From the NCBI GenBank assembly GCA_014359405.1, contig JACIZN010000002.1, forward strand, positions 5,848-38,783: a DNA stretch of 32,936 nt. Direction: 5' to 3'. The first letter of the stretch is position 1. Each line of letters opens with the position of its first letter. Shown piece after piece: positions 1,347 through 16,652 of this stretch. This stretch comes from Candidatus Caldatribacterium sp. GTDB lineage: Bacteria; Atribacterota; Atribacteria; Atribacterales; Caldatribacteriaceae. The position numbers and the translations under genes were made by a program. The notes below the pieces were generated by a model. It had not been told where the DNA came from, searched no databases, and saw only the letters and a list, made by a program, of their open reading frames with translations.

Positions 1347-2321
1347 GTGATTAGACTGAAAGACATTGCAAAAGAGGCAGGGGTTAGTGTCTCCACCGTC
1401 TCAAAGTTCCTCAGTGGTAAGGGTTCCTTCTCCCCTCGCACCGAGGAACGCATCAGACAGGCCATAGAGGCACTGGGCTTTCAGAAAGATCCGGCACGGG
1501 GCAAGAACAGTAAGCTGAAAGTCGTGGGCGTCATCATTCCCGATATCGAAAATCCTTTCTTCTCGAGTGTAGTTAAAGCTCTCGAACTTCTTCTATTCCG
1601 GTATGGATACTTCCTCCTCCTCTGCAATACCGAGAACAACGTTCATCTTGAGGAGCAATTCATTCACTACCTGAGCCGGAGTGGAGCACGGGGCATCCTC
1701 CTTGTACCTGCAACGAGCGAAAAACGCCCAAAACCCTTAGGACTCAATATCCCGGTGTTGCTTTTTGACCGAACCATCCGAGAGGCCAATTTTCCAACCG
1801 TTATGACCAATCACTACAAAGGAGCGAGAATCGCTGTTTCCTACCTTATCCAGAAAGGTTGTCGGCGCATTGCCTTCATCGGTGGGAGAAAAGATGTCAA
1901 CGCGTATGAAGACAGGCTCAAAGGGTACATAGACGAGCTTCGAGAGAGAAAACTCGAGTTCGATCCGGATATCGTGATTGAAAGCGATTTCTCCTTCCAG
2001 GGAGGATACCATGCCATAACGCTCCTCCATGAGCGAGGCAAACCTTTCGATGCGGTTTTCGCTGCTAACGACCTCACAGCTCTTGGTGCCATCGAGCGCT
2101 TAAAGGAACTCGGAATCGCCGTGCCCGGTGACGTCTCGGTAATCGGCTTTGATGACATCTGGCTCTCTCGCCTGACGCATCCTCAGCTCACAACGGTGCG
2201 TCAGCCGATACATGAACTCTGCAAAGAGGCCGTGACAACACTCATTGAGCTCATGGATAAGGGGGTGAGAGCAGGTTCCAAAATCTTAGAGCCTCAGCTT
2301 GTTGTTCGGGAATCTTGTTAA
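1347..2321 (+). CDS. LacI/GalR-family transcriptional regulator
   Basis: This 324-residue sugar-responsive DNA-binding repressor starts at GTG after a GGAAGGAGAG site. Residues 1-45 are the LacI helix-turn-helix (KDIAKEAGVSVSTVSKFLSG) and hinge, and the rest is a periplasmic-binding-protein-like effector domain with typical VVGVIIPDIENPFFS, AFIGG, VFAANDLTALGAI and SVIGFDDI segments. The gene sits between a divergent sugar-binding gene and the plus-strand importer/mannosidase operon, whose first gene starts 27 bases after its stop with no promoter visible between, so it is probably co-transcribed with that operon and controls it. The effector sugar is unknown. Confidence 0.93.
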   Translation: MIRLKDIAKEAGVSVSTVSKFLSGKGSFSPRTEERIRQAIEALGFQKDPARGKNSKLKVVGVIIPDIENPFFSSVVKALELLLFRYGYFLLLCNTENNVHLEEQFIHYLSRSGARGILLVPATSEKRPKPLGLNIPVLLFDRTIREANFPTVMTNHYKGARIAVSYLIQKGCRRIAFIGGRKDVNAYEDRLKGYIDELRERKLEFDPDIVIESDFSFQGGYHAITLLHERGKPFDAVFAANDLTALGAIERLKELGIAVPGDVSVIGFDDIWLSRLTHPQLTTVRQPIHELCKEAVTTLIELMDKGVRAGSKILEPQLVVRESC

Positions 2322-2335
2322 CCCTAAAAAGAACT

Positions 2336-2340
2336 GGAGG
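2336..2340 (+). promoter_or_regulatory. Ribosome site deciding the binding-protein start
   Basis: GGAGG lies 2 bases before the ATG at 2343 but 8 bases before the in-frame ATG at 2349. The same 8-base spacing recurs at 6469-6473 (ATG 6482) and 7609-7613 (ATG 7622), so the later start is chosen in all three cases. Confidence 0.6.
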
Positions 2341-2348
2341 TAATGCCC

Positions 2349-3578
2349 ATGAAAGGCAGAAAACTGGCATTTGTTGCTCTTGGCATATCCCTTGTGTTAG
2401 TGCTGCTTGGTGCAGTTGCATGGGGAGAGGAGATACATGTAGCTATTCAGAGCTTTGCTCACGAAGCGCTTAAGCCGTTCATTGAGCAGTTTGAAACCCA
2501 AACTGGTATAAAGGTTGTTCTCGAATCCATGCCTTCTTCGGGTACCGATGCGCTCACAAAGCTCACCACGTACTATCGAGCTGGCCAGAGCCCTTACGAT
2601 GTCGTGAGTGATTCGGACGAGGCTTCGCCCGCCTTTGCTCGCGCAGGGTGGCTCGAACCGCTCAATGACGTACTCCCTCCGGATTTCTTCGAGGATTTTC
2701 CGCCCAGCATGCTGGAGTCAGAAAAGGTCTGGAACTGGATTGACGACAAGGTATACCGCGTACGACACAGCTTCGAGTTCAGCTACTTCTTCTACCGTAA
2801 AGATTGGTTCGACGAAATGGGCCTCCTTCCTCCGGCAACCTGGGAGGAAATGGTCGACATCGCAAAGAAATTCACAGCCCAAGGGAAAATCGGTGTACAG
2901 GACGCGTTGAGCAAACCAGCACTTCTTTACGTTTACGTCGCCTACCTCACCATTCAAGCAGGGGGTAATCCTTTTGCTTTTGACGAGGGATTCAAGACAG
3001 CGGTGAAATTCATCCACGACATGATTTACGAGCACCAGGTTTTCCCCAAGGAAGCCCTGAACAAAAACTACGACCAAATCAACGAGGACTACATGAACGA
3101 CCGTGTAGCCATGATGCGTCAATGGCCGTACTTCTACAGTGTCACCCGGAACAATACCGAGTGGTACAGGGAAGGAAAGGCAGAAATTGCTCTCCCGCCA
3201 AAGGGTCCGGTGAGCAACGCTTCCTGGGCCGGAGGATGGGGCTGGGAGATTCCAAAATTTGCGAAGAACAAGGAAGGAGCAAAGAAGTTCATCCAGTTCA
3301 TCCTCTCCAAGGAAATTGCTCCAAAGCTTGCCCGGGCCAACAGCTGGTTCATGAACCCAAGGTACTCCGTCATGGCGGAAATGGGTGACGAAGGACTCGC
3401 TAAGTACATGAAGTGGTACAGCGACAACAACGTTCCCGCTCCTCGCCCGTACCACCCGAGAGTTGCCGAGGCGCAGAACATCGTTGATGACGTGGTTTCC
3501 GCATACCTCATTGGACAAATGACCCTCGATGAGGCCGTCGAGCAAGGGAAAAAGATGATGGCCGAGCTCGGCGAATAG
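2349..3578 (+). CDS. Extracellular sugar-binding protein (family 1, MalE-like)
   Basis: This exported receptor of about 409 residues belongs to a carbohydrate-uptake (CUT1) ABC importer. It has a KGRK n-region, a hydrophobic signal segment to about residue 23 and a likely cleavage before EEIHVAIQSF. The mature protein shows the family 1 solute-binding pattern: a FIEQFETQTGIKVVLESMP lobe, SPYDVVSDSDEASPAFARAGWLEPL, a late GGWGWEIPKFAKNKEGAKKFIQFILS segment and a conserved aromatic-rich C-terminal region. Two matching permeases follow, so ligand delivery to them is well supported. The ligand is probably an oligosaccharide, perhaps a mannoside given the downstream mannosidase; that is inference. 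Confidence 0.9.
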   Translation: MKGRKLAFVALGISLVLVLLGAVAWGEEIHVAIQSFAHEALKPFIEQFETQTGIKVVLESMPSSGTDALTKLTTYYRAGQSPYDVVSDSDEASPAFARAGWLEPLNDVLPPDFFEDFPPSMLESEKVWNWIDDKVYRVRHSFEFSYFFYRKDWFDEMGLLPPATWEEMVDIAKKFTAQGKIGVQDALSKPALLYVYVAYLTIQAGGNPFAFDEGFKTAVKFIHDMIYEHQVFPKEALNKNYDQINEDYMNDRVAMMRQWPYFYSVTRNNTEWYREGKAEIALPPKGPVSNASWAGGWGWEIPKFAKNKEGAKKFIQFILSKEIAPKLARANSWFMNPRYSVMAEMGDEGLAKYMKWYSDNNVPAPRPYHPRVAEAQNIVDDVVSAYLIGQMTLDEAVEQGKKMMAELGE

Positions 3579-3589
3579 GCAAAAGTAAC

Positions 3590-3614
3590 CCCGCCCTGCG
3601 AGCCGCAGGGCGGG
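3590..3614 (+). other. Intra-operon hairpin between binding-protein and permease genes
   Basis: A perfect 11-bp stem (CCCGCCCTGCG, loop AGC, CGCAGGGCGGG) starts 11 bases after the binding-protein stop. No T run follows, so it is unlikely to stop transcription. It fits the known role of such hairpins in protecting the upstream mRNA and giving more binding protein than permease. Confidence 0.65.
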
Positions 3615-3636
3615 CCGAAAGGAGCCCCAAAAAGCT

Positions 3637-4524
3637 ATGAAACTCCAGAAAGCTTCTCGTCGAAAACTCTACTACGCACTGGCGCTTATTCTTCCTGCAC
3701 TTGTGCTTCGGTTGTTTACCTCCCTTTACCCGGTGGTGTACACCGTCTACCTTTCATTCTTCAAGGTTAACCCAATTATCGGCCTCCACAAATATGCCGG
3801 ACTCGAAAATTTCCAGAAAATGACTACAGACCTGGTGGTTCGAGAGAGCATCTTCTTCACCATTTTCTTCACCTTCCTATCCATTGCGTTCCAGACGACG
3901 TTGGGACTCCTCGTGGCTTTGCTTTTGAACAAGCGTTTCCACCTGAGGTACTTTGCGCGAGTCATAAACCTTGTCCCCTGGGCCATTCCGATGATTGTCG
4001 TGGCGCTGGGATTCAGATGGATGTTCGACAGCGAGTACGGCATCATCACCGACGTCATAGCCCGCGCCACAGGTTGGCGTTTTGCCTGGCTTGTGCACCC
4101 ATGGGGCGCCCGATGGGCCATTGTTCTTGCCAATGTCTGGAAAAACACTCCCTTTGTGGCCATCCTTCTTTTGGCCGGTCTCCAGAGTGTTCCCTCCGAA
4201 ATTTACGAAGCAGCCCACGTGGATGGAGCGTCTTCCTGGCACTGTTTCCGCTACATCACCATTCCCTTTCTTGCGCCAATCATCATGACTGTGGTGCTCT
4301 TTTTCACCGTGTGGTACCTGGCAACGTTTGACATCGTCTACGGAATGACTGGGGGAGGTCCTGGATTCTCTACAGCCATCATGTCCTATAAAATCTACCA
4401 GGAAACCTTCTCCCACATGAACTTTGGGTACGCCTCGGCGCTGAGCGTTGTTCTCCTCTTCCTCGTTGGCGTCTTAGGACTCTTGTTCCTGTTCATTTCC
4501 CGGAAATTCGAAATCCTCATGTAA
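3637..4524 (+). CDS. Sugar ABC transporter permease, MalF-type
   Basis: This 295-residue inner-membrane permease has about six hydrophobic helices. The first follows RRKLYYALALILPALVL, and near residue 190 there is a full EAA loop (EIYEAAHVDGASSWHCFRYI) that docks on the ABC ATPase. The length and the AGLENFQ segment after helix 1 are typical of the first permease of CUT1 importers. It lies between the binding protein and the second permease, with 14 bases to the latter. It would form a heterodimer with the 4539-5381 product. Confidence 0.92.
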   Translation: MKLQKASRRKLYYALALILPALVLRLFTSLYPVVYTVYLSFFKVNPIIGLHKYAGLENFQKMTTDLVVRESIFFTIFFTFLSIAFQTTLGLLVALLLNKRFHLRYFARVINLVPWAIPMIVVALGFRWMFDSEYGIITDVIARATGWRFAWLVHPWGARWAIVLANVWKNTPFVAILLLAGLQSVPSEIYEAAHVDGASSWHCFRYITIPFLAPIIMTVVLFFTVWYLATFDIVYGMTGGGPGFSTAIMSYKIYQETFSHMNFGYASALSVVLLFLVGVLGLLFLFISRKFEILM

Positions 4525-4538
4525 GGAGTTGAAAAACT

Positions 4539-5381
4539 ATGGCCTTTGAGAGGGAACGGGGTAATCTTGTGGTAACCTATGGCCTCTTCTTGGTTTACGT
4601 CCTTATAACCCTTTTCCCCTTTTACTGGATTTTCATCTCTTCCGTAACACCGAAACACAAGCTCTTCTCAATTCCCCCACTCTACTTTCCAAAGTACTTC
4701 ACAACCGAGAACTTCACCCGCATGATGCATAACATTCCCTTCTCCGCCTACCTCAGGAACTCCCTCACCTTCTCCCTTTCCTCAAGTGCGGTGTCGGTGC
4801 TCTTGAGCTTTTTTGCTGCCTATGCCTTTGCGCGTATTCGCTTCCGAGGCAGCAATGTGCTCCTCCTCGTTTTTCTTTTGAGCATTGCCCTTCCTCCCAT
4901 AACGACAGTCATTCCCCTGTACGAGCTCTACGGTAAAGTGAATCTCCTCAACACCATTGAGGGAATGGTTATCGCAATGTCCAGCCTCATCACGCCTTTC
5001 ACCATCTGGGTTCTCATTTCCTTCATCAAGCGGGTACCGGTCGAAATCGAAGAAGCTGCCGCAATTGACGGAGCCGGATTCTTCCGAATCCTCTTCCAGA
5101 TTTCGTTACCCCTTATCCTCCCAGCCATCGGGACGATGTTCGTCATCAACTTCATCACGAGCTGGAATGAACTCCTCTATCCCCTGGTCTTCGGTGTCGA
5201 CGCAAACAGCAAGACCCTAACGGTAGGGCTCACCGAGGTTGCTCTGGAATCCACAGCCTACGGGAAACCCTGGGACCTCATGAGCGCCTTGAGCGTGGTG
5301 ATGATCATCCCTGTGGTTGCCCTTGTCATCATCTTCCAGCGTACCATCGTCGAAGGATTGACAAGAGGCGCCATCAAATGA
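4539..5381 (+). CDS. Sugar ABC transporter permease, MalG-type
   Basis: This 280-residue inner-membrane permease has six predicted helices, an FPFYWIFISSVTP segment after helix 1, and an EAA loop reading EIEEAAAIDGAGFFRILFQI, followed by SWNELLYPLVF near the C-terminus, all typical of MalG-type subunits. AAGGAG precedes the ATG. Neither this operon nor the visible part of the divergent one supplies a CUT1 (MalK/MsiK-type) ATPase, so a shared ATPase encoded elsewhere is needed. Confidence 0.92.
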   Translation: MAFERERGNLVVTYGLFLVYVLITLFPFYWIFISSVTPKHKLFSIPPLYFPKYFTTENFTRMMHNIPFSAYLRNSLTFSLSSSAVSVLLSFFAAYAFARIRFRGSNVLLLVFLLSIALPPITTVIPLYELYGKVNLLNTIEGMVIAMSSLITPFTIWVLISFIKRVPVEIEEAAAIDGAGFFRILFQISLPLILPAIGTMFVINFITSWNELLYPLVFGVDANSKTLTVGLTEVALESTAYGKPWDLMSALSVVMIIPVVALVIIFQRTIVEGLTRGAIK

Positions 5382-5393
5382 GGTGGTTCATCC

Positions 5394-6479
5394 ATGTTCC
5401 CTGAAAAACTCTCGATTGAGGAAAGAAAGACCATCCTCCACCGCCTCTGGGAAAAGGCAGAACACGGACCGGTTTTCTACATTGGCTCTCCGGGCACCAA
5501 TCCCTTCCTGAAAGGGCACCTCCCCTCCTTTGAGGAGCTCCTCGAAGGAGAGCTGCTCCGCCTTTCCCTGCGGGACACAATTGCGGATTTTGACATCCCC
5601 GCACTCCGGACGGATTTCGGAACGAGCATTTTCCCATCGGCCTTCGGTGCTCCTGTTCGTTTCGAAAAAGGACGATACCCCTGGAACGAACCTATCGTGT
5701 TCGACAACCCCTCAGTCGTGTATCGACTCAAGAAGCCTTCGCTTGACAGCGGGCTCATCGGAAAGGTCCTCGACTTCACCCGGTTTGCGGTCCAGGAAAC
5801 GAACGGCCGGTTCCCCGTAAAGATGACGGACCTCCAGGGGCCCGTTGACGTGGCGTACCTCCTCTGGGAGAGCAACAGCTTCTTCCTCGCCCTCTTCGAA
5901 GCCCCCCAGGCAGTGCACCATCTCCTTGGAATGATCACGGAATTCCTCATAGACTTTGTTCATGCCCAGCGAAGGGCAGCAGGAAGAGCAGAGTTCATCC
6001 CGTGCCACCTCCAGCACTACCTCCCCTGGGGTGAGGGAATCTGCGTGAGTGAGGATCTCTTGAGCATTCTCTCTCCTGAGCTCTACAGAGAATTCGCACT
6101 CCCATACCTCAACGCGCTTTCTGAGGAGTTCGGAGGCATTCTCATCCACTCCTGCGGGAACTTCACCCACAACCTCAAAGTCCTCAAAGAGGTTAAGGGG
6201 CTCAAAGGGATTAACTTTGGAGCCACGGAGACACCCTTTGAAAGGGTTGTCGAGGAATTGCAGGGAGAGGTGGTTATCTCTCCTCACCTTGGTTTGAACA
6301 AGGATATCGTTTTCTCCAGCGTTCTCGACTACCTGAGGCATCTCAAGAATGTCGGCAAAGACGTCCCATTCCTGTACATCCTTGTGGACACGACGAACTC
6401 CCTTCTGGGGCACGACATGAACTGGAGCCAGGAGGAACTCGAGGCAATTCACAACATTTTCGAAAACTGGAGGGTATGA
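5394..6479 (+). CDS. URO-D superfamily protein with HxCG motif (possible methyltransferase)
   Basis: This 361-residue protein has the uroporphyrinogen decarboxylase TIM-barrel pattern. Late in the barrel is ILIHSCGNFTHN, with H252 and C254 in an HxCG motif. In the MtaA/CmuA corrinoid methyltransferase branch of the superfamily this motif helps bind zinc; true HemE proteins lack it. KMTDLQGPVDVAYLLW and the YREFALPYLNALSEEFG helix also fit that branch. The gene starts 13 bases after the permease stop (GAGGTGG before ATG) and overlaps the next URO-D gene. Haem synthesis is unlikely for a gene in a sugar operon. A methyl-transfer or other C1 step on the imported glycoside is inference. Confidence 0.75.
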   Translation: MFPEKLSIEERKTILHRLWEKAEHGPVFYIGSPGTNPFLKGHLPSFEELLEGELLRLSLRDTIADFDIPALRTDFGTSIFPSAFGAPVRFEKGRYPWNEPIVFDNPSVVYRLKKPSLDSGLIGKVLDFTRFAVQETNGRFPVKMTDLQGPVDVAYLLWESNSFFLALFEAPQAVHHLLGMITEFLIDFVHAQRRAAGRAEFIPCHLQHYLPWGEGICVSEDLLSILSPELYREFALPYLNALSEEFGGILIHSCGNFTHNLKVLKEVKGLKGINFGATETPFERVVEELQGEVVISPHLGLNKDIVFSSVLDYLRHLKNVGKDVPFLYILVDTTNSLLGHDMNWSQEELEAIHNIFENWRV

Positions 6480-6481
6480 CA

Positions 6482-7600
6482 ATGGCAAGCCGTGCTCGAG
6501 CGCGTGCCGCTCTCTTCCTTAAGCCGACGGATCGCATCCCTCACTGGGAATTCCTCGCCAATCCTGATTTTGAGCGCCAGCTTACAGGAATCGACCCTGA
6601 GGTTCACCCTCAAAAGGCCCGCCTGCGAACTCTGGAGCTTCTGGCCATAGATGTGGAAATCCCGCCCCGCACCGACACGCCCCCTTCGTTCCGGGTGGAA
6701 GAGAACGGAACGGTGGTGAATGTTCGGGGAAAAGCGGTGAGCCGCTGGGGAGGTGGGACCACCTGGGAGTGGGACCACGGGTCCCGGTTCCCCACGATTG
6801 AAGACGTCCTCCGGTTCGACCCCGTGGAGGCTTTTTTGGCCCGCGAGTCCGAGGAAATTTTCGAGGATATCGACCCACTACAACGCTTCCTCCACCTCCC
6901 CCTTGAAGAAATGGCGGCAAAGCTCAACGAGGACTTCCACATGCTCCAGGACCTTGTTGGAGAACGAGCCCTCGTGCCAGGACACTACTACAGAACACTC
7001 CTCATGTGGCCACTCATGCTCTTTGGCTGGGAACACTTCGCCGAGCTCGTATACCTCTACCCAGGGGAATTCCAGAGAATATGGAAAGGATTTGCCGAAA
7101 TCTCCCTCAAAGTAACTTCCGCCTTTGCCCTCACGGACATCGAGGTCTTCACGAGCCACGACGATCTCTGTATGACCCGGGGACCCATTTTCAGCCCCGA
7201 ATGGTACCGAAAACACCTCTATCCCTATTACGAGATGATATGGGAACCCCTGAAGAAGAAAGGGAAAAAGGTTATCTTCATCTCCGACGGAAAAATCGAC
7301 GCGGTTATCGACGATGTGCTATCCTGTGGCGCGGATGGATTCTTTGCCGAAAGCTACACCGACCTTGAAACCCTGAGCAAGAAGTACGGCCAGAGCAAAG
7401 TGATGTTCGGGAACATCGACGGACGAATTCTCCAGGAGGGGACCAGAGAGGACATCAAAAGAGAAGTGGAACGCTGCGCGAGGTTCGGCAAGGATTGCCC
7501 CGGGTACTTCTTTTGCGTCGCAAACCACCTGACACACACCATCCCTCCTGAGAACATCTTCTACTACTTCGCGGTATGTGAGGAACTGGGGAAGAGATAG
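6482..7600 (+). CDS. URO-D superfamily protein lacking the HxCG zinc motif
   Basis: This protein of about 372 residues starts at ATG 6482, 8 bases after GGAGG; an upstream in-frame ATG at 6476 overlaps the previous stop as ATGA. It shows the URO-D fold pattern (RARAALFLKPTDRIPHWEF at the start, a SHDDLCMTRGPIFSPEWYRK segment, and NIDGRIL with a C-terminal FFCVANHLTHTIPPENI loop). Where the two sister proteins carry HSCG or HTCG, this one reads ISDG (residues 267-270), so it cannot bind zinc in the same way. It may be a non-metal URO-D enzyme or a partner subunit. The other residues look intact, so this is not simple decay. Confidence 0.75.
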   Translation: MASRARARAALFLKPTDRIPHWEFLANPDFERQLTGIDPEVHPQKARLRTLELLAIDVEIPPRTDTPPSFRVEENGTVVNVRGKAVSRWGGGTTWEWDHGSRFPTIEDVLRFDPVEAFLARESEEIFEDIDPLQRFLHLPLEEMAAKLNEDFHMLQDLVGERALVPGHYYRTLLMWPLMLFGWEHFAELVYLYPGEFQRIWKGFAEISLKVTSAFALTDIEVFTSHDDLCMTRGPIFSPEWYRKHLYPYYEMIWEPLKKKGKKVIFISDGKIDAVIDDVLSCGADGFFAESYTDLETLSKKYGQSKVMFGNIDGRILQEGTREDIKREVERCARFGKDCPGYFFCVANHLTHTIPPENIFYYFAVCEELGKR

Positions 7601-7621
7601 AAACACCTGGAGGTGTTGCCC

Positions 7622-10270
7622 ATGTACTTGCACTTCGTGAGCCATACGCACTGGGACAGGGAGTGGTACGAAACCTTTGATGCCTTCCGATTCCGCCTGG
7701 TGCATCTCATAGACCGCCTCCTTGAAATTCTCCGTAACGACCCTGGCTACCGCTCCTTCCTCCTTGACGGGCAGACCATTGTGCTTGAGGACTACCTCGC
7801 CATCAAGCCCCACCGCAGGGAGGAACTCAGGAAGTTCGTTAGAGAAGGACGAATCTTCATCGGCCCCTGGTACGTTCTCACCGATGAATTCCTCGTAAGC
7901 GGCGAGACCCACATCCGGAACCTGCTCTTTGGAAAACGCCTGATGCAGGAGTTCGGTGGTCGCAATGGCATCGGATACCTTCCCGATGCCTTCGGACACA
8001 TCGCGCAGATGCCACAGATTCTCAAAAAAAGCGGAATTCGCTACGCCACCTTCTGGAGAGGAGCTTCACGCGAAGTCACACAAAGCGAATTTTTTTGGAA
8101 GGCTCCTGACGGTTCGGAAGTTCTCACCATTTACATGCCTTTCGGATATGGGGTTGCCGCAAATCTCCCGGCCTCACAGGAGGATCTGGTACGACGCATC
8201 CGAAGACTCATAGAAAAGCTCGCACCCTTTGCCACCACCCAGCATCTTCTTTTGATGAACGGCAGCGACCACATTGAGCCGGATTTGGAACTCCCGAAGA
8301 AACTCGCCGTGCTCAGAGAAGCACTGAAAGAGCACGTGGTTCTCCACTCGAATCTCCCCTATCTTTTCAAGAGAATTGAGGAGGAAGCGCCACCGCTACC
8401 GGTGTACGAAGGTGAATGGCGGGCTGACGACGTAAACTACCTCCTGGGGGGTACCCTTTCCTCCCGGGTGTACCTCAAGCAGAAGCACACCCGGTCTTCG
8501 TACCTTCTGGAGCGCTACCTGGAACCCCTCTACGCCTTTCTCACCCCCTGGGGCATTCCGTACCCAGAGGACTTCCTCAATTACCTCTGGAAGCTCCTTC
8601 TTGAAAACTCCCCGCACGACTCAATTTGTGGCTGCAGCATAGACGAAGTGCACGAAGAGATGATGCAAAGGTACAGGAGAATCGAGGATGTGGCCTCAAA
8701 ACTTCTGGCCCAGGCAAGAAGGTATCTTGAAGACCTTTGCAAGGGCGATGAAGATGTACTGATTATCTTTAACCCGTACCCGTATCCGGTGAGCACTTAC
8801 CTTGAGGGTACCGTATACCTCAAAAAGAGAAAGGTTCAAGAAGTGGACTTTGAAATCAGCAAAATCCGATCCTACACGATTGAAGAGGAGGAGCTTGCAC
8901 CGGCTCTTGAGCTTGTAGGCCAGGGTGAAACCATTGTTCCCGAAATCCTCGAGAGCTCGTGGGTAACACTCATGGAGACACCGACACACACGCTTCCTGA
9001 GATTTTCAGAGCCCAACGGTACACCATCGCCTTCTCCGTGCAAAACCTTCCACCCCTTGGCTGCGCCTTCTTCAGGATTGTTCCCAGAAACGAAAAGGAA
9101 AGCAAAGCGCCCCTTTCCGGGTTCCCCACAGAATGGACTATGGAGAACGAATTCTACCGCCTCCGAATTGAACCCCAGGGCCGAATCTGGCTCTACGAAA
9201 AGGCAACACAGCAGGAATTCCCCCTCGGCCCTGTCTTTGAAGATGGGGCAGATGCAGGCGATGAGTACGACTACTCACCCTGTGAAGAGGATGAGCTCAT
9301 CCGGAGTGATGCGGTTATCCCCCAAATACAGTGGGTTCGCCACGATCGGTATGTCCAGCGCATCCGCCTCCAGTACTCCCTCGATTTGCCGAAAGCCCTG
9401 GCTCCCCACAGGAAGAAGCGGAGCGAAGAAAGGGTTTCTGTCCCCCTCACGGTGGAAGTGCAACTCACCCAGGGCTCAAGACGAATCGACTTCGAGGTAA
9501 CCCTCGAGAATCAAGCCTGCGACCATCGCCTGCGCATGCTCTTCTTTGCTCCTTTTGCAGTTGACCACCACTTCGCCGATTCCCACTTCGCACTCCTCCG
9601 GAGAAAGAACGAGAGGAAAACGCAGCCGCAAAACGACTTCGTTCTCCTTGAGAACGGGAGGTACGTCTTCACGGTCTGCAACGAGGGGCTTCGAGAGTAC
9701 GAAATCCTCCCCGAAAAAGAGGCAACCTGCGTGGCCATTACCCTGCTTAGAGCCGTTGGCTGGCTCTCGCGGGACGACTTACTCACAAGGAAAGGGCACG
9801 CCGGGTGGGGTTTACCTGCCGAGGGCGCGCAGTGCCTGGGCACGCACCGATTCCGCCTTGGTGTCCTCTTTGGGGAAGGAAAACCCTCGGACTTTCTCCC
9901 CTACAGGGAAGCCCGTCTCCTGAGCAACCCTCCACTCCTCTTCCAGGTCCGCGGGAAGTCGAATCACCCCCTCAACGGCTTCTCCCTCTGTCACTGCGAC
10001 AACCAGGAAATCGTCCTCAGCGCCCTGAAAAAGAGGGAAGGGGGGCACGACATGGTGCTGCGAATCTACAACCCCACGGAGAAGCCACAGGAATTCTGCC
10101 TCACCTTTAATATCCCGGTTCTTGAAATCTGGCAACTCTCCCTTCTTGAAGAAGAGGAAATGCATATCGCTTCTCGAAGGAACAGGATTGAAGGTGTCCT
10201 CAACCCCTATGAAATCAGAACTCTCGGTATAGTCTGGGAGCCAAGGAGGCAAGAAAAGGATGACTCCTAA
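7622..10270 (+). CDS. GH38 family alpha-mannosidase
   Basis: This glycoside hydrolase of about 882 residues has no signal peptide, so it acts in the cytoplasm on the imported sugar. The GH38 zinc site is visible: HTHWDREW with H10 and D12, YLPDAFGH with D122 as the likely nucleophile (and a metal ligand), and NSPHDSICGCS with H332 as the fourth ligand. The C-terminal half is the usual beta-sandwich region. The start at ATG 7622 has GGAGG 8 bases upstream; an in-frame GTG at 7613 is too close to it. The 3' end overlaps the next gene by 11 bases. Family members cleave alpha-mannosides, and the exact linkage cannot be predicted. Confidence 0.93.
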   Translation: MYLHFVSHTHWDREWYETFDAFRFRLVHLIDRLLEILRNDPGYRSFLLDGQTIVLEDYLAIKPHRREELRKFVREGRIFIGPWYVLTDEFLVSGETHIRNLLFGKRLMQEFGGRNGIGYLPDAFGHIAQMPQILKKSGIRYATFWRGASREVTQSEFFWKAPDGSEVLTIYMPFGYGVAANLPASQEDLVRRIRRLIEKLAPFATTQHLLLMNGSDHIEPDLELPKKLAVLREALKEHVVLHSNLPYLFKRIEEEAPPLPVYEGEWRADDVNYLLGGTLSSRVYLKQKHTRSSYLLERYLEPLYAFLTPWGIPYPEDFLNYLWKLLLENSPHDSICGCSIDEVHEEMMQRYRRIEDVASKLLAQARRYLEDLCKGDEDVLIIFNPYPYPVSTYLEGTVYLKKRKVQEVDFEISKIRSYTIEEEELAPALELVGQGETIVPEILESSWVTLMETPTHTLPEIFRAQRYTIAFSVQNLPPLGCAFFRIVPRNEKESKAPLSGFPTEWTMENEFYRLRIEPQGRIWLYEKATQQEFPLGPVFEDGADAGDEYDYSPCEEDELIRSDAVIPQIQWVRHDRYVQRIRLQYSLDLPKALAPHRKKRSEERVSVPLTVEVQLTQGSRRIDFEVTLENQACDHRLRMLFFAPFAVDHHFADSHFALLRRKNERKTQPQNDFVLLENGRYVFTVCNEGLREYEILPEKEATCVAITLLRAVGWLSRDDLLTRKGHAGWGLPAEGAQCLGTHRFRLGVLFGEGKPSDFLPYREARLLSNPPLLFQVRGKSNHPLNGFSLCHCDNQEIVLSALKKREGGHDMVLRIYNPTEKPQEFCLTFNIPVLEIWQLSLLEEEEMHIASRRNRIEGVLNPYEIRTLGIVWEPRRQEKDDS

Positions 10271-11375
10271 GGAACGCATGATCATCGCCCTCGAACGGGG
10301 GAAACCCGACCGCCTTCCTGTAACCGTCCACCAGTGGCAGCGGTACCATCTGGAAACGTACCTTGGAGGGATGAGCGAACTCGAGGCTTTCATATACTTC
10401 GGCATGGATGCCGCCGTTCAGTACGTTGAAGAAATGGAGCAATTCTGGTTGACCAATCCCGACTTCTCGAGATTCTCAACCCCAACATGGAGACACGAGG
10501 TAACCGTGGTGCGCAACGACCCCGACGACTGGGAGTACCACCACACCATCACAACTCCCGAAGGAGTCTTAACGTACAGGACCTCCGGGAACCGGAAAAC
10601 TGTTTGGGTGTCCGAGTACCTCCTAAAGCACGATGAGGACATCAAGCTCCTTCGCAAGTACATGCCGGTGCATCCCCTCAACGTGGACGCCGTCAATCGC
10701 CTCTACGACGAAATAGGCGACCACGGTATCCTGCGCGGTCTCATCTGGGGGGACCAGGCGGGTTGCTGGCAACACGCCGCCTGCCTCATTGACATCAACG
10801 AACTCATCCTGCGCACTTTTGACCAACCGGACTGGGTTCATGAGCTCCTGCAAATCCTTCTTGAAAAGAAACTCCAGTTCATAGAAACCATGAAGGGGGC
10901 AAAGTTTGACCTCGTGGAAACCGGCGGAGGAGCCGCCTCGTCGACTCTCATATCTCCGAAAATCCACGAAGAATTCTGCCTGCCCTACGATCGAAAAATC
11001 CACCAGGCGCTCCACGACCTGGGGTTCCGAATCACCTACCATACCTGCGGGGGGACAAGAGGAATCGAAGAGCTCATCGTCGCCAATGGCACCGATGCCT
11101 CTGAAACCTTAGCTCCCACGAGCATTGGAGGAAACCAGGAACCCTGGGAGTTCAAAGAGAAAATCGGAAACCGCTTAGCCCTCATAGGAGGCATGGACCA
11201 AATCAATGTCCTGACGTACGGAACACCTGAAGAAATCAGGAAAACCGTACATACCCTCTTTGAACGTGTGGGCTACGAAGGCGGATACATCCTCTCCTGC
11301 GCAGACCATTTCTTCGATGCTCCCCCCGAGAACCTCAGGGCGTACGTCGCAGCAGCCCGCGAATGTGTGTACTAA
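10260..11375 (+). CDS. URO-D superfamily protein with HxCG motif (possible methyltransferase)
   Basis: This is the third URO-D-type protein of the operon, 371 residues. It opens with the classic TPKERMIIALERGKPDRLPV segment of URO-D/MtaA proteins. Later it has LVETGGGAASSTLISPKIHEEFCLPY and then ITYHTCGGTRG, with H261 and C263 forming the HxCG zinc motif. Its start overlaps the mannosidase end by 11 bases, with AAGGAGG upstream, so translation is probably coupled. It is only distantly similar to the other two, so the trio is not a recent tandem duplication. Corrinoid-dependent methyl transfer is the best family-based guess, but the partner corrinoid protein is not in the window. Confidence 0.78.
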   Translation: MTPKERMIIALERGKPDRLPVTVHQWQRYHLETYLGGMSELEAFIYFGMDAAVQYVEEMEQFWLTNPDFSRFSTPTWRHEVTVVRNDPDDWEYHHTITTPEGVLTYRTSGNRKTVWVSEYLLKHDEDIKLLRKYMPVHPLNVDAVNRLYDEIGDHGILRGLIWGDQAGCWQHAACLIDINELILRTFDQPDWVHELLQILLEKKLQFIETMKGAKFDLVETGGGAASSTLISPKIHEEFCLPYDRKIHQALHDLGFRITYHTCGGTRGIEELIVANGTDASETLAPTSIGGNQEPWEFKEKIGNRLALIGGMDQINVLTYGTPEEIRKTVHTLFERVGYEGGYILSCADHFFDAPPENLRAYVAAARECVY

Positions 11376-11681
11376 CTAAAAAGGAGGGTTCTCCTCACGA
11401 GGAAGGCTCACAGTCAAAGAGTGGGCAAGCTCATAAGGAATGAATTCCCGGGGTTTGGTCTCCTGAAAAGCTTTCTCCCTCGATACTGCCTCCTGTAGAT
11501 ACCGGAAGCTCCGGTTACCGAATTCCTGAGCGACGAAATGCAGCACCCGAAGTTCGGTTGGGGAAAGGCAGGAGTATCGCCCTGTTAAGCCCTGGAGGGA
11601 GATTCCGCGCTACCGGAGGTCGACAACAAACCCGCAGGAATTCCCCCGTGGTATAATGGGTTCCGTGAAGGCACCGGACAT
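11376..11681 (-). pseudogene. Possible broken minus-strand ORF downstream of the URO-D operon
   Basis: On the minus strand one frame reads from ATG 11681 to TAG 11376 with a single in-frame TAG at 11612-11610. The longer part (about 77 codons) reads like protein, with LSPTELRVLHFVAQEFG, FRYLQEAVSREKAFQ and PYELAHSLTVSLPREENPP segments. I recognise no family. The codons resemble those of neighbouring genes, but the 5' part overlaps the start of the nucleotidyltransferase gene, so chance is possible. A short stem followed by TTTTT at 11395-11378 could end a minus-strand transcript. Confidence 0.25.
11649..11657 (+). promoter_or_regulatory. Extended -10 promoter, apparently leaderless, for the nucleotidyltransferase gene
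   Basis: TGG plus TATAAT (11652-11657) forms an extended -10 box. Exactly 7 bases later lies the GTG at 11665, so the transcript would start at or next to the start codon. No ribosome site precedes that GTG. Confidence 0.55.
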
Positions 11682-12078
11682 CGAGGCCTACCTTTCGTCC
11701 TGGAAAAAAAGAGCGCGGGCTGAGGAGGAAAAGCGGCAGGAAAGGGCAAAAGAGGCCCTCAAGGTGGCTTTTGCCATTGCCCAAAGCCTGGTTGAGAAAG
11801 GCAAGGCAAAAAGAGTGTACCTCTTTGGTTCACTGGCCTCCTCAATGCGGGGCTGGAGGCGCTTTGGCCTTGCCTCAGACATCGATTTGGCTGCGGAGGC
11901 TATCCCCAAAGGGGAGTACTTCCGAATCCTTGCCGAAGTCAACAGGATGAGCGACTTTGAGATTGACCTTGTGGACCTTGAAGCCTGTCCGGCACCCCTG
12001 CGAGAGGCCATTCTCAAGAATGGGGTTCTTCTTTATGGGAAAGAAGGAAGCGATTCTCTCGCTCATTGGGGAGATTGA
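11665..12078 (+). CDS. MNT-type nucleotidyltransferase (MntA-like antitoxin)
   Basis: This 137-residue pol-beta superfamily minimal nucleotidyltransferase has the motif LFGSL (G55, S56), then SDIDLA with D72 and D74, and a third acidic strand FEIDLVDLE (D101). In MntA/HepT modules such proteins neutralise a HEPN ribonuclease by adding AMP to its tyrosine. The GTG at 11665 is preferred because it lies 7 bases after a -10 box; an ATG at 11656 overlaps the box itself. The gene overlaps the following HEPN reading frame by 44 bases, the usual arrangement of this pair. All key residues are present. Confidence 0.78.
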   Translation: MKAPDIEAYLSSWKKRARAEEEKRQERAKEALKVAFAIAQSLVEKGKAKRVYLFGSLASSMRGWRRFGLASDIDLAAEAIPKGEYFRILAEVNRMSDFEIDLVDLEACPAPLREAILKNGVLLYGKEGSDSLAHWGD

Positions 12079-12515
12079 GAACCTGCTCCAATCCCTGGAT
12101 CTTGTTGTCGGCGAAGCAAAAGAACAAATGGTTCGCTACTCCTCTACGAAGCCCGACCGTTTCGACCTCAGGGGATTGGGAAGCCTCCTCCACGATTTCT
12201 ACACCATCGTCGAGGACATTTTTGAGCTCATTTCCCAGGACATGAACGGTGGTAGAAATCGCGAGAGCTTTGACTGGCATAAGAGACTCCTCTTTAGGAT
12301 GAGCATCGCCATTCCCGAGGTCCGTCCCGCGGTGATTTAAATACCTGAGGTTTCGGCACGTCTTCCGGAATGTCTACGGATACCTTTTGGAATGGGAACG
12401 AATGCGCCCTCTTTTCGAGGGGTTAGAAGAAACGCATAAGGCTCTCCGCGAGGAGCTGGGGAATTTCGAAAGGTTCCTGCTTGAGCTCGCCCACGGGTTG
12501 GAAGAAGAAGCTTAG
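12035..12515 (+). pseudogene. HepT-like HEPN gene split by a +1 frameshift
   Basis: The frame from ATG 12035 runs about 101 codons (IGEIENLLQSLDLV, LLHDFYTIVEDIFELI, SFDWHKRLLFRMSI) and stops at TAA 12338-12340. The next frame, from AAA 12339 to TAG 12515, continues the same protein (KYLRFRHVFRNVYGYLLEWERM, then a helical tail). Removing one T from the run at 12336-12338 restores a continuous protein of about 159 residues. The missing half carries the HEPN catalytic segment. The canonical RX4HXY reads R-HVFR-N-V-Y here, with Asn in place of His. It may be a natural pseudogene, an assembly error or a recoding site. Confidence 0.75.
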
Positions 12516-12597: not shown

Positions 12598-13989
12598 ATG
12601 CAACAGGGACGCGTTACCGATTTCACCCAGGGGAGCATTCCACGACACCTCATTGTCTTCTCCATACCCATGCTCATCGGGAACCTCCTCCAGACCCTCT
12701 ACAACACCGTGGACAGCATCTGGGTTGGGCGCTTTCTGGGACCCGAGGCTCTTGCCGCGGTGTCGGTGAGCTTTCCCATTGTCTTTCTCCTTGTGGCCTT
12801 CACCATCGGCCTGAGCATGGCGGCAAGTGTCATGGTGGCCCAGTACTTTGGGGCAAAAAAGGAGGAGGAAGTCAGGCGGACGGCAACGGCCTCCACAGCC
12901 CTTTTGACCCTCCTTGGCCTTGGGCTCATGGTCCTTGGGCTTTTTGTCCATGAGAGCCTGCTCCACCTCATACGGACACCTTCGGGAATCATGGAGCTTG
13001 CGGCATCGTATCTCTTTTTCTTCCTCCTCGGGCTTCCCTTCATGTTCCTGTACAACAATATCGGGAGTATCCTGCGGGGAGTGGGGGATTCGAAGACTCC
13101 CCTTGTGCTTTTGGTGTACGCCACAATCCTCAACATTATCCTTGACCCCCTTCTTATTCTTGGCGTTCCTCCCTTTCCCCGCCTTGGGGTTGCCGGAGCA
13201 GCCATCGCGACAACGGTGAGCCAGGGGTTTTCAGCCATCTGGGGAACGGTTATCCTCAGGCGGGGTGGATTCTTCGTCTTCGAGAAGGACTACCTCGTTC
13301 CCTGTGCCTCCTTCGTGCGGACGCTCTTTCGCCTTGGGCTTCCTGCCGGAGCGCAGCAGACCATCGTGTCCTTAGGGCACCTCACCATGATGGCCATTGT
13401 GAACGGTTTTGGAAAGACTGTGGTTGCCGCCTTTGGGGCAGCTGCACGGGTGGATCAGTTCTCCTTTCTGCCTGCCATGAGCTTCAGCATTGCCATATCC
13501 TCCCTTGCAGGACAAAACGTGGGAGCCCAGAACTTCACCCGGGCGAGAGAAGTGGCCCGCTGGGGAGCGATTGTGGCCGGAGGTTTTGCGCTGCCCATCT
13601 CAGCCTTTGTTTTTGCCTTTGCCCCACAGCTTATCCGAATCTTCACCACCGATCCTGAGGTTACCCGCATCGGAATAGAGTACCTCCGTATCGTGAGTCC
13701 TTCCTACGTTCCCTTTGCCCTCATGTTCGCGTACAACGGCTTCCTCCGGGGAGCCGGGGACACCTTCCAGACCATGGTGAACACCCTCCTTACCCTTTGG
13801 CTTGTGCGTATCCCGGTGGCAAAGCTCCTCTCCATGACTTCCTTGGCGGAGCGGGGCATATGGATGAGCTTCGTCGCCGGACCGGTGGCCGGCTACCTCA
13901 TTGCCTATCTTTACTACCTCAGCGGGAAGTGGGAGGCGAAATCCCTCATTCGGAAAGAGCGAGAATCCTTTCAAGAAGCGGCATGTTGA
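12598..13989 (+). CDS. MATE family multidrug/toxin efflux transporter
   Basis: This 463-residue membrane protein has about twelve helices in two similar halves. It opens with TDFTQGSIPRHLIVFSIPMLIGNLLQTLYNTVDSIWVGRFLGPEALAAVS, the signature N-terminus of the NorM/DinF superfamily, and has the matching second-half helix with FRLGLPAGAQQTIVSLGHL. Such proteins export cationic drugs or metabolites in exchange for sodium ions or protons. It has its own promoter and no operon partner. Its last 44 bases overlap the 3' end of the convergent cobyric acid synthase gene. Confidence 0.93.
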   Translation: MQQGRVTDFTQGSIPRHLIVFSIPMLIGNLLQTLYNTVDSIWVGRFLGPEALAAVSVSFPIVFLLVAFTIGLSMAASVMVAQYFGAKKEEEVRRTATASTALLTLLGLGLMVLGLFVHESLLHLIRTPSGIMELAASYLFFFLLGLPFMFLYNNIGSILRGVGDSKTPLVLLVYATILNIILDPLLILGVPPFPRLGVAGAAIATTVSQGFSAIWGTVILRRGGFFVFEKDYLVPCASFVRTLFRLGLPAGAQQTIVSLGHLTMMAIVNGFGKTVVAAFGAAARVDQFSFLPAMSFSIAISSLAGQNVGAQNFTRAREVARWGAIVAGGFALPISAFVFAFAPQLIRIFTTDPEVTRIGIEYLRIVSPSYVPFALMFAYNGFLRGAGDTFQTMVNTLLTLWLVRIPVAKLLSMTSLAERGIWMSFVAGPVAGYLIAYLYYLSGKWEAKSLIRKERESFQEAAC

Positions 13990-15412
13990 GGTGGCAGGAG
14001 AGGAACCCCGCAAGGCGGTCGAGTTCCCTGTCCACGAACTCCCGCCAGGACAGGCTCTCCTGAGCGTACGGTGGAAGGCCCCGAAGAGCCCTGACGTAGT
14101 TGAGGAACGCCCGGCGGAACCTCCCCTCATCAAAGAGCCCATGGAGGTAGGTTCCGAAGATGCAACCATCCCGCACCATCCCCTCGGGTTCCCCTCCGTC
14201 AAGGACGAAGAACGCCTCGCAGGGGGCGGTTTTGAAGCTCCTCCCGTGGTGGATTTCGTACCCCTCTACCCTCTCGCCGAAAAGCGGAGCGTAACCTGAA
14301 GCAAGGGAGAGCCGCTTTTCTCTTGCAAAAACCGTAACGGCTGGAAGAAGACCAAGACCCTGCATTTCCCCTCCCCCTTCCACCCCGTGGGGGTCCTGGA
14401 GCACCTCCCCAAGCATCTGGAAGCCCCCACAAACCCCAAGAACAACCCCACCTTTTGCCACAAATGCCTTGAGCCTCTCCCCAAGGGATACCTCCCAGGC
14501 TGCGGCAAGGTCCGCAAGAGTACTCTTTGTCCCGGGAAGAATGAGAAGATCGAAATCGTCGAAGCGTCCTTTCAGGGAAACGAAGGAGATATCCACATCG
14601 TCCTCAAGCTCAAGGGGCCTGAAATCGGTAAGATTCGAGGCATGGGGAAGGCGCAGGACCCCTACCCGGAGGGCACAAGAGGAGAGCACCCGGGGCCGAA
14701 ACGTAAAAAGGGCACTGTCCTCGTCATCCAAAGACCAGGGAAAGTGCGGCAAAACCCCCAGGACCGGGACACCGGTGAGTTCCTCGAGTTCTCGAATCCC
14801 CGGCCTGAGAACCTCCGAATCCCCCCAGAGCTTGTTGATGACAAACCCCCGGATGAGCTTTCTGTCCTCCCCGCAGAGAGCCCAGGTCCCGTAGAGGGCG
14901 GCAAAGACTCCACCCCGCTCGATATCCCCCACAAGGAGCACAGGAATCCCAAAACTCCGGGCAAGGGACATGTTGGCGAGGTCCCGTTCCCTCAGGTTAA
15001 TCTCGGCAGGGCTTCCCATCCCCTCGACGATGACAAAGTTGTACTCGGCAAGGAGGGACTCAAGGCTTTCCACAATCGCCCGCCAGAAGACCTCCCGGGG
15101 GAAGGGGGAAAAGGAGGGGAACCGGCCAGAGACCTTCCCCCGAAGGACCACCTGAACGCTTCCGCCCTCGGGCTTCAAGAGAATCGGATTCATCCGGGAG
15201 TCAGGAGGAATCCCCGCCGCCTGGGCTCCAAGAATCTGCGAGCGGGCCATCTCCTCCCCCAGGGGGGTGACGCCCGAGTGCAGGGACATGTTCACCGCCT
15301 TGAAGGGGGCAACCCGAAGCCCCTTCCGGGCAAAGTAGCGCAAGAGTCCTGCGGCAATGAGGCTCTTCCCCACTCCTGAGGCCGTTCCCTGAACCGCAAG
15401 AAGGCGTCGCAT
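13946..15412 (-). CDS. cobQ: Cobyric acid synthase
   Basis: This glutamine-dependent amidotransferase of about 488 residues amidates the corrin ring side chains in cobalamin synthesis. The N-terminal dethiobiotin-synthetase-like ATPase domain begins LLAVQGTASGVGKS (P-loop residues 9-17) and continues with FKAVNMSLHSGVTPLGEEMARSQ and RMNPILLKPEG. The C-terminal class I glutaminase-like domain has GVCGGFQMLG with C328 as nucleophile and YEIHHG later. ATG 15412 is used because it starts at the conserved P-loop strand; a TTG at 15427 overlaps the upstream MFS gene. It is the last gene of the uridine phosphorylase operon, and no other cobamide gene is visible. Confidence 0.92.
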   Translation of the reverse strand: MRRLLAVQGTASGVGKSLIAAGLLRYFARKGLRVAPFKAVNMSLHSGVTPLGEEMARSQILGAQAAGIPPDSRMNPILLKPEGGSVQVVLRGKVSGRFPSFSPFPREVFWRAIVESLESLLAEYNFVIVEGMGSPAEINLRERDLANMSLARSFGIPVLLVGDIERGGVFAALYGTWALCGEDRKLIRGFVINKLWGDSEVLRPGIRELEELTGVPVLGVLPHFPWSLDDEDSALFTFRPRVLSSCALRVGVLRLPHASNLTDFRPLELEDDVDISFVSLKGRFDDFDLLILPGTKSTLADLAAAWEVSLGERLKAFVAKGGVVLGVCGGFQMLGEVLQDPHGVEGGGEMQGLGLLPAVTVFAREKRLSLASGYAPLFGERVEGYEIHHGRSFKTAPCEAFFVLDGGEPEGMVRDGCIFGTYLHGLFDEGRFRRAFLNYVRALRGLPPYAQESLSWREFVDRELDRLAGFLSCHLNMPLLERILALSE

Positions 15413-15416
15413 GCTT

Positions 15417-16652
15417 CTACTCCGCAAAGTTCTCGAAAGCCCGGGGCTCCCTCACCGCAAGAAGGAGCGCAAGTCCCAGGGCGTTCAGAAGAAGGGAAAC
15501 CCAGAACACCGTGGTGTACCCGAAAAGGTCGGCAAGCTTCCCCCCAAGAATCGGGGCAAAGAAGGCGGGGAATCCGGAGAAGAAGCTCCCCCACCCGAGG
15601 TAAAGCCACCGCCTCTCCGGTGGGGCAAAGTCAAGGAGAATCGCCACTCCACCCACCGACACCGCACTGTAGTTGAGGCCAAGGAGCCCAAAGGCAAGGA
15701 AGAAGTGCCCGGGAGAGGGAGCAAGAATGGCCCAGAGGTTGCTCAAGAGAATCGCTAAAGTTCCGCAGAGCAAAACGAGCTTGTGCCCCCTTTTGTCCCC
15801 CAGAGGCCCCCAGAAGAAGTTCGACAGCGCCTGGGAAACAAGGAGCACCGCGTTGTAGCGGGCAATGAAGGTATCCTGAATGGAGAACCGTCCGAGCACC
15901 GAAACAGTGTAGAACGCCGCCCCCATAACCCCAAGGGCAAGGAACACCCGGGCTACCAGAAAGAGAAGGAAGTTTGGGTCTTCACGGACGATGCGGGAAA
16001 AGGAGCGAAGGTAGCTCCCTCCCTCATCCGTTACCGGTCCGTCTTCCTCCCGGGTGAGGGAGAGGAAAACGTACGATACTCCCATGGCCAAAGAGGCGAG
16101 AAAGAAGCACAGCGCAAAGTTCCAGGCAAAGGGGTACGAGGCGATGAGGCGCTCCGCAAGCTGCGAGCCCCAGATGCCCATGAGGGCCCCGATGCCATTC
16201 CCGCAGGCAAAGTACAGTCCCCAGCGGGAGGAATGGATGACTTTGCCAATCATCTCCGTCCAGATGGGACCGAGAAACCCCATGGCCGAGCAGGCCACAG
16301 CAAGGAAAAGGAGGACAAGGTACAGGGCAAGGCGCGGGGAAGAGGTGGCGTAAAACGCCGCCACAAGGGCAATCCCAAAAAAAGGCAGGCGCTCAAAGAG
16401 GGTAACCCGGAGGATGAAGGGGAGTTTGCGCGAAAGCCTCTGGGAGACCTTTGCGCCCCACAGGGCAGGGAGAGACCAGCCAAGGTAAGCCAAAGCGGGG
16501 ATGAGGCCGATTTCGATGTTCCCTGCCCCAAGGCGCTTGGCAAAAAGGGGCAAGAAGGTGGTGACTGAGCCAAAGGACAGGGCAAGGGAGAAGAAGGCGT
16601 AGTCCAAGGAATCCACGAAGAAGTTGAAGATGTAGTCCCGCCGCGAAAGCAT
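15417..16652 (-). CDS. Major facilitator superfamily transporter
   Basis: This 411-residue protein has about twelve hydrophobic helices in the MFS arrangement: an early LPLFAKRLGAGNIEIGLIPALAYLGWSLPALWGAKVSQRLSRK (helices 1-3 with the basic loop) and later WGPLGDKRGHKLVLLCG, the repeat of the basic loop motif. ATG 16652 shares its first base with the stop of the upstream helicase gene (TAATG), so translation should be coupled. The frame is open further upstream, but those codons lie inside the helicase and do not look like a transporter. The substrate is unknown. The adjacent cobQ could suggest cofactor-related transport, which is weak inference. Confidence 0.85.
   Translation of the reverse strand: MLSRRDYIFNFFVDSLDYAFFSLALSFGSVTTFLPLFAKRLGAGNIEIGLIPALAYLGWSLPALWGAKVSQRLSRKLPFILRVTLFERLPFFGIALVAAFYATSSPRLALYLVLLFLAVACSAMGFLGPIWTEMIGKVIHSSRWGLYFACGNGIGALMGIWGSQLAERLIASYPFAWNFALCFFLASLAMGVSYVFLSLTREEDGPVTDEGGSYLRSFSRIVREDPNFLLFLVARVFLALGVMGAAFYTVSVLGRFSIQDTFIARYNAVLLVSQALSNFFWGPLGDKRGHKLVLLCGTLAILLSNLWAILAPSPGHFFLAFGLLGLNYSAVSVGGVAILLDFAPPERRWLYLGWGSFFSGFPAFFAPILGGKLADLFGYTTVFWVSLLLNALGLALLLAVREPRAFENFAE

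Follow-up and report, generated by a model that had tools for sequence, protein, structure and literature searches.

URO-D superfamily proteins in a conserved mannoside operon of Candidatus Caldatribacterium: candidates for anaerobic sugar O-demethylation

Why should an operon for sugar uptake carry three genes of the URO-D superfamily, and what might their products do there? The operon lies in a stretch of 32,936 nucleotides (the window), part of a draft genome of Candidatus Caldatribacterium sp. of 1.86 Mb and 97% completeness (G000, contig C2). Eight co-directional genes fill positions 1347-11375 of the + strand:

1347..2321, + strand: LacI-family regulator, at the head of the transcription unit (Pfam LacI and Peripla_BP_3; same place in G003 and G006)
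2349..3578, + strand: CUT1 sugar-binding protein, SBP (Pfam SBP_bac_1; 90-93% identity in G003/G006)
3637..4524, + strand: CUT1 permease A, permA (Pfam BPD_transp_1; UgpA/MalF-like)
4539..5381, + strand: CUT1 permease B, permB (Pfam BPD_transp_1; UgpE/MalG-like)
5394..6479, + strand: UROD1, URO-D superfamily (Pfam URO-D E 2e-19; site His252-Cys254-Asn; 67-71% identity among orthologues)
6476..7600, + strand: UROD2, URO-D superfamily, lacking the HxC metal motif (Pfam E 5e-20; Ile-Asp-Asn; 82-87% identity among orthologues)
7613..10270, + strand: GH38 alpha-mannosidase or mannosylglycerate-hydrolase-like protein (Pfam GH38 N, mid, C and C2; motifs HTHWD, PDAFG and SPHDSICG intact)
10260..11375, + strand: UROD3, URO-D superfamily (Pfam E 1e-25; site His261-Cys263-Asp349; 88% identity in G003)

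A sequence-only reading had described the seven genes from 2349 to 11375 as contiguous, with short gaps or overlaps, behind a LacI-type regulator, and this layout was confirmed. The gaps are 58 nt (SBP/permA), 14 nt (permA/permB), 12 nt (permB/UROD1) and 12 nt (UROD2/GH38), while UROD1 and UROD2 overlap by 4 nt and GH38 and UROD3 by 11 nt. We preferred 2349 to 2343 as the start of the SBP gene because a GGAGG lies about 10 nt upstream. The binding protein and two permeases have the Pfam domains of a CUT1 importer (SBP_bac_1 and BPD_transp_1), and the operon contains no ATPase gene for it. The GH38 protein has the N, middle and C domains, the metal ligands and the nucleophile of the family. It scored 573 bits against PRK09819, where the cut-off is 1138, and is therefore not an equivalog of the mannosylglycerate hydrolase MngB. 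A search for LacI operators revealed no palindrome common to the operons compared.

Several neighbouring genes were also recorded. A CUT2 (RhaS/LsrB-like) binding protein is encoded divergently from the operon (170-1186, - strand), along with two RbsC-like permeases (G000:C2:2375-4332, L016), and the genes 5' of LacI differ between G003 and G000. On the other side, 11656-12340 encodes a small Polbeta nucleotidyltransferase and an overlapping 127-aa HEPN-partner-like frame, possibly a MntA/HepT toxin-antitoxin pair.

The neighbourhood is conserved, an outcome that the sequence-only reading had named as support for its proposal. We searched 61 relatives for GH38 and read the flanking genes, using a simple length-based gene caller and small custom-built family profiles outside the window. 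All or most of the eight-gene block was found in three further genomes. G003 has all eight genes in the same order, G006, from another genus, keeps LacI through GH38 but not UROD3, and G002, from the same genus, keeps permease-permease-UROD1-UROD2-GH38 until its contig ends. G002 is taken to be Ca. Caldatribacterium saccharofermentans OP9-77CS, its piece of the operon corresponding to record APCU01000106.1. Gene order is thus maintained across two genera wherever contig ends permit, and the conservation of the block exceeds chance. Among these orthologous operons UROD2 (82-87% identity) is better conserved than GH38 (64-71%), and its more distant relatives come from Armatimonadetes, Chloroflexi, Lentisphaerae and others. 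G014, from another family of the order, has a separate operon of LacI, SBP, permeases, GH38, two URO-Ds, a GH4-like gene and an aldo-keto reductase; its GH38 is 31% identical, and a third URO-D lies slightly downstream.

GH38 and permease genes also occur with no URO-D visible, in a second, fragmented CUT1/GH38 operon of G000 (contigs C151 and C193; L035, L061) and in G018 and G021, all at loci cut by contig ends. This suggests that the URO-Ds were added to a system for mannosides. Contig C131 of G000 (L019:2625-4738) carries a paralogue of UROD3, 83% identical, which adjoins another URO-D and may belong to a second operon of the same type.

The three URO-D proteins do not make haem. The sequence-only reading had said as much, and both the profile score and the porphyrin motif agree. 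Against the HemE equivalog TIGR01464, with a cut-off of 303, UROD2 scored 22.7 and UROD3 17.7 bits, and UROD1 was not listed. The RxAGR motif of HemE, present in three reference HemEs, was absent at its N-terminal place from all 98 URO-Ds compared, the sole other match, at residue 194 of UROD1, being fortuitous. HemE identity was rejected on these grounds. Tandem duplication was rejected too, as UROD1, UROD2 and UROD3 fell into three separate deep lineages in a 101-protein tree that had the three HemE sequences as its root. All three have the URO-D fold according to Pfam, and the best Foldseek matches of the predicted models were MtaA and HemE structures; these models (pLDDT 55 and 65) were built from 4-5 close sequences, are of low confidence and are adequate for fold assignment only.

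What class of URO-D they belong to is a finer question. The motif HxCG was correctly read in two of them, as HSCG in UROD1 (H252/C254) and HTCG in UROD3 (H261/C263), with FISDG in UROD2. Its use to place them in the corrinoid methyltransferase branch did not hold, as the motif alone is insufficient and the third MtaA ligand is missing or changed. In the alignment the three zinc columns of MtaA read H-C-N in UROD1, I-D-N in UROD2 and H-C-D in UROD3: UROD1 lacks the third ligand, UROD3 has Asp in its stead, and the site is absent from UROD2. The three proteins thus lack the His-Cys-Cys zinc triad of the MtaA/MtbA-type and Mlp thiol methyltransferases, which within our URO-D set was found only in eight MtaA-like proteins. 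An MtaA-like URO-D with the full triad is encoded in G000 (contig C17; L017:7174-8238), with close relatives in G003, G014 and G017; genes for a Liv-type transporter, a DapA-like protein and a Zn-alcohol dehydrogenase lie near it. Most of the set has an HxC or HxD metal-type motif, which the three HemE references lack, and the site residues are HCN, HCD, HCH or HDH rather than HCC; the His frequent at the third position among relatives is also present in HemE. In superfamily S-methyltransferases the site is His-Cys-Cys, whereas in O-methyltransferases one or both Cys are replaced by carboxylates or non-ligands (PMC10418091). When this published rule is applied to the alignment, the putative sites of UROD1 and UROD3 fit the O-methyltransferase class and not MtaA. 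The only PDB relative of UROD2 was CdmB (E 0.004), a corrinoid methyltransferase that works without zinc (PMC13222342), so the missing metal site of UROD2 is not decisive against a role as a first methyltransferase (MT1). The best PDB match of UROD1 was a HemE, and NCBIfam scores against known corrinoid MT1s were far under the cut-offs, the similarity being weak.

The pairing of URO-D genes with sugar importers extends across the order and is not confined to mannoside uptake. Well-covered genomes of the order have 10-31 PF01208 proteins each and two less complete ones have 5, compared with 0-8 per genome in the rest of the phylum. We counted a gene as linked if a CUT1 or CUT2 permease was encoded on its strand no more than four genes away. 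By this measure 31 of 54 URO-Ds were linked in G014 and G017, each a single-contig genome, against 33 of 222 control genes from 20 random stretches (Fisher p 7e-10, which is optimistic as URO-Ds of one operon were counted separately). The figure was 6 of 14 in G003 and 3 of 19 in the fragmented G000, these three being UROD1, UROD2 and UROD3. Frequent neighbours were LacI, ROK, Gfo/Idh/MocA and xylose-isomerase-like genes, and in G014 and G017 the linkage extends to different URO-D lineages. Our literature searches yielded no publication on URO-Ds of sugar operons, nor any on those of Caldatribacterium.

The sequence-only reading had proposed a search of the genome for an MtaC-like corrinoid protein and a RamA-like activase. 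Both are present in the genome, though not in the operon, and none of the three outcomes that this reading had said would refute it was observed. G000 has exactly one MtaC/MtgC-like corrinoid protein, exactly one activase, of the AcsV type (RACo/RACE), and one AcsE-like methyl-H4folate methyltransferase (MT2), together with MetVF, FTHFS and SHMT as outlets. The corrinoid protein is encoded on contig C74, the activase on C59 and the MT2 on C43. Neither a corrinoid protein nor an activase gene was found in the window operon, its orthologues or any other sugar/URO-D operon examined. As a rule each relative, too, has a single corrinoid protein, a single activase and a single MT2. These proteins of G000 would be available to URO-D MT1s, as candidate cognate partners. 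In G003 a hub of about 20 kb contains AcsE-like MT2, FolC, HdrA-like, MetF, MetV, FTHFS, MtaC and SHMT genes, with no MT1 gene among them; G014 and G017 have the same gene order around MtaC, with MT2 about 17 kb away.

Who feeds this hub? It is kept in G006, G012 and G014, where neither MttB nor MtaB was found and the URO-Ds are left as the evident MT1 candidates. The hub may serve other enzymes in G000, which has a single MttB, and in G003, which has one MttB plus one MtaB; as it also occurs in members of the phylum with no URO-Ds, it must have other duties. The activase was scored in 50 genomes of the phylum: 28 of the 30 that have five URO-Ds or more carry it, against 8 of the 20 that have fewer, and for genomes outside the order the counts are 5 of 5 and 8 of 20. 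Both comparisons are uncorrected for ancestry, and the co-occurrence is confounded by it.

Some further corrinoid-related genes were seen. About 2.5 kb downstream of the operon the window encodes a cobyric acid synthase, cobQ (13946-15427, - strand), which points to a corrinoid being made or salvaged, and contig C72 has a cbiL-like gene close to URO-Ds (L021:3876-4556). In G017 a 388-aa B12-binding_2 protein adjoins a CUT1/URO-D operon (L161:2371-4486). We rejected this MtaC-like protein as a partner, as it lies beside a PAS-type protein and is more sensor-like, possibly a corrinoid or light sensor. G009 has a canonical cluster (C138; L089:6267-11637) of activase, URO-D (F-E-V site), second MtaC-like protein and AcsE-like MT2, likely an ordinary O-demethylase system.

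O-methylated sugars are present in algal, bacterial and plant glycans. Because of the importer linkage, the single corrinoid protein, activase and MT2, and a hub with no MT1, the reading we favour, at about even odds, is that URO-Ds O-demethylate imported methylated sugars and feed one shared corrinoid protein. The operon would import a mannose-containing glycoside or oligosaccharide bearing methyl ethers, or another removable C1 group, and GH38 would cut the alpha-mannosidic bond. The three URO-Ds would be substrate-specific MT1s that take methyl groups off sugar oxygens and load them onto the Co(I) of the single MtaC/MtgC-like protein. The AcsE-like MT2 would hand the methyl to tetrahydrofolate, MetVF-Hdr, FTHFS and SHMT would oxidise or assimilate it, and the AcsV-type activase would re-reduce the cobalt. 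To our knowledge, characterised MT1 systems keep a corrinoid or activase gene in the operon, unlike the sugar/URO-D operons here, which counts against this scheme.

The chief rival is that the URO-Ds are sugar-catabolic enzymes that use the barrel with no corrinoid, for instance decarboxylating or isomerising a sugar acid from the imported glycoside. HemE, with the same fold, is a cofactor-free decarboxylase, many sugar-operon URO-Ds keep the His at the HemE position, and the operons have no corrinoid gene; some relatives of UROD2 have sugar dehydrogenase, dehydratase or GH3 genes as neighbours but no corrinoid gene in the vicinity. However, the metal-type motif that the three reference HemEs lack, the hub with no MT1 and an activase that tracks URO-D number all speak against it, and we know of no URO-D-family enzyme with such sugar-acid chemistry. 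We consider it unlikely. The proteins might instead be corrinoid methyltransferases whose target is not a sugar O-methyl group. They could act on methyl ethers of the aglycone (methoxylated phenol glycosides) or on methylthio or N-methyl groups of the imported compound, or they could run in reverse and methylate. This reading too seems improbable, if only slightly more so. Known URO-D MT1s do use methoxyaromatics, thiols and haloalkanes (PMC8630106, PMC10418091, PMC13222342), and the genus has been obtained in enrichment on lignocellulose (PMC11227167), but the operon has no aromatic-catabolism or sulfur genes and the absent His-Cys-Cys site argues against thiols.

It is very doubtful that the URO-Ds are hitchhikers, members of a mobile and often duplicated family with no catalytic link to mannoside use. 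The contig-end-cut GH38 loci with no URO-D would suit this, but the overlaps of 4 and 11 nt, the order kept over two genera where contigs are long enough, the higher conservation of UROD2 than of GH38, and the like pairing seen in G014 and G017 for other URO-D lineages would not be expected of passengers.

If sugar O-demethylation is the function here, a broader picture can be offered, more tentatively. Demethylation in the class Atribacteria could be organised as a hub and spokes, the spokes being divergent URO-D methyltransferases that number in the dozens. Many of them would sit in separate sugar-import operons, each suited to a particular O-methylated sugar, and all would feed one chromosomal corrinoid protein with its MetVF-FTHFS outlet, an anaerobic route for naturally methylated sugars. 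Many URO-D superfamily proteins whose only present name comes from haem synthesis would thereby gain a function, and with candidate enzymes named the question is testable with cultured Atribacterota.

Known systems resemble parts of this picture. Mannosylglycerate hydrolase and bacterial alpha-mannosidase operons likewise combine GH38 with a regulator and sugar importer, but here URO-D genes are added and the PRK09819 cut-off is not reached. The MtvABC, OdmABD and MtoABCD O-demethylases consist of URO-D MT1, corrinoid protein, MT2 and activase, and candidate counterparts of all four are in the genome: URO-D-fold proteins with non-HCC sites, an MtaC-type protein, an AcsE/MtrH-type MT2 and a RACE activase. 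The differences are that the MT1 candidates here lie in sugar-import operons, apart from a single shared corrinoid protein, and that three divergent candidates accompany a glycosidase, with no aromatic-substrate genes. The Type 1 mlp gene clusters (Kountz and Balskus, PMC10418091) also have several URO-D paralogues in one operon of an anaerobe; the corrinoid protein and activase that define them are missing from the window and orthologous operons, and the operon here differs further in having no His-Cys-Cys site and no sulfur or selenium genes. We found no paper describing anaerobic sugar O-demethylation. The route found was oxidative demethylation of 6-O-methyl-D-galactose from porphyran by a P450, an aerobic monooxygenase that releases formaldehyde (PMC10033563). 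Both would achieve the same end, the removal of a methyl ether from a sugar; the P450 requires oxygen, whereas anaerobic methyl transfer is proposed here, and the pairing of URO-Ds with a mannoside operon suggests an O2-free way to strip methyl groups from sugars.
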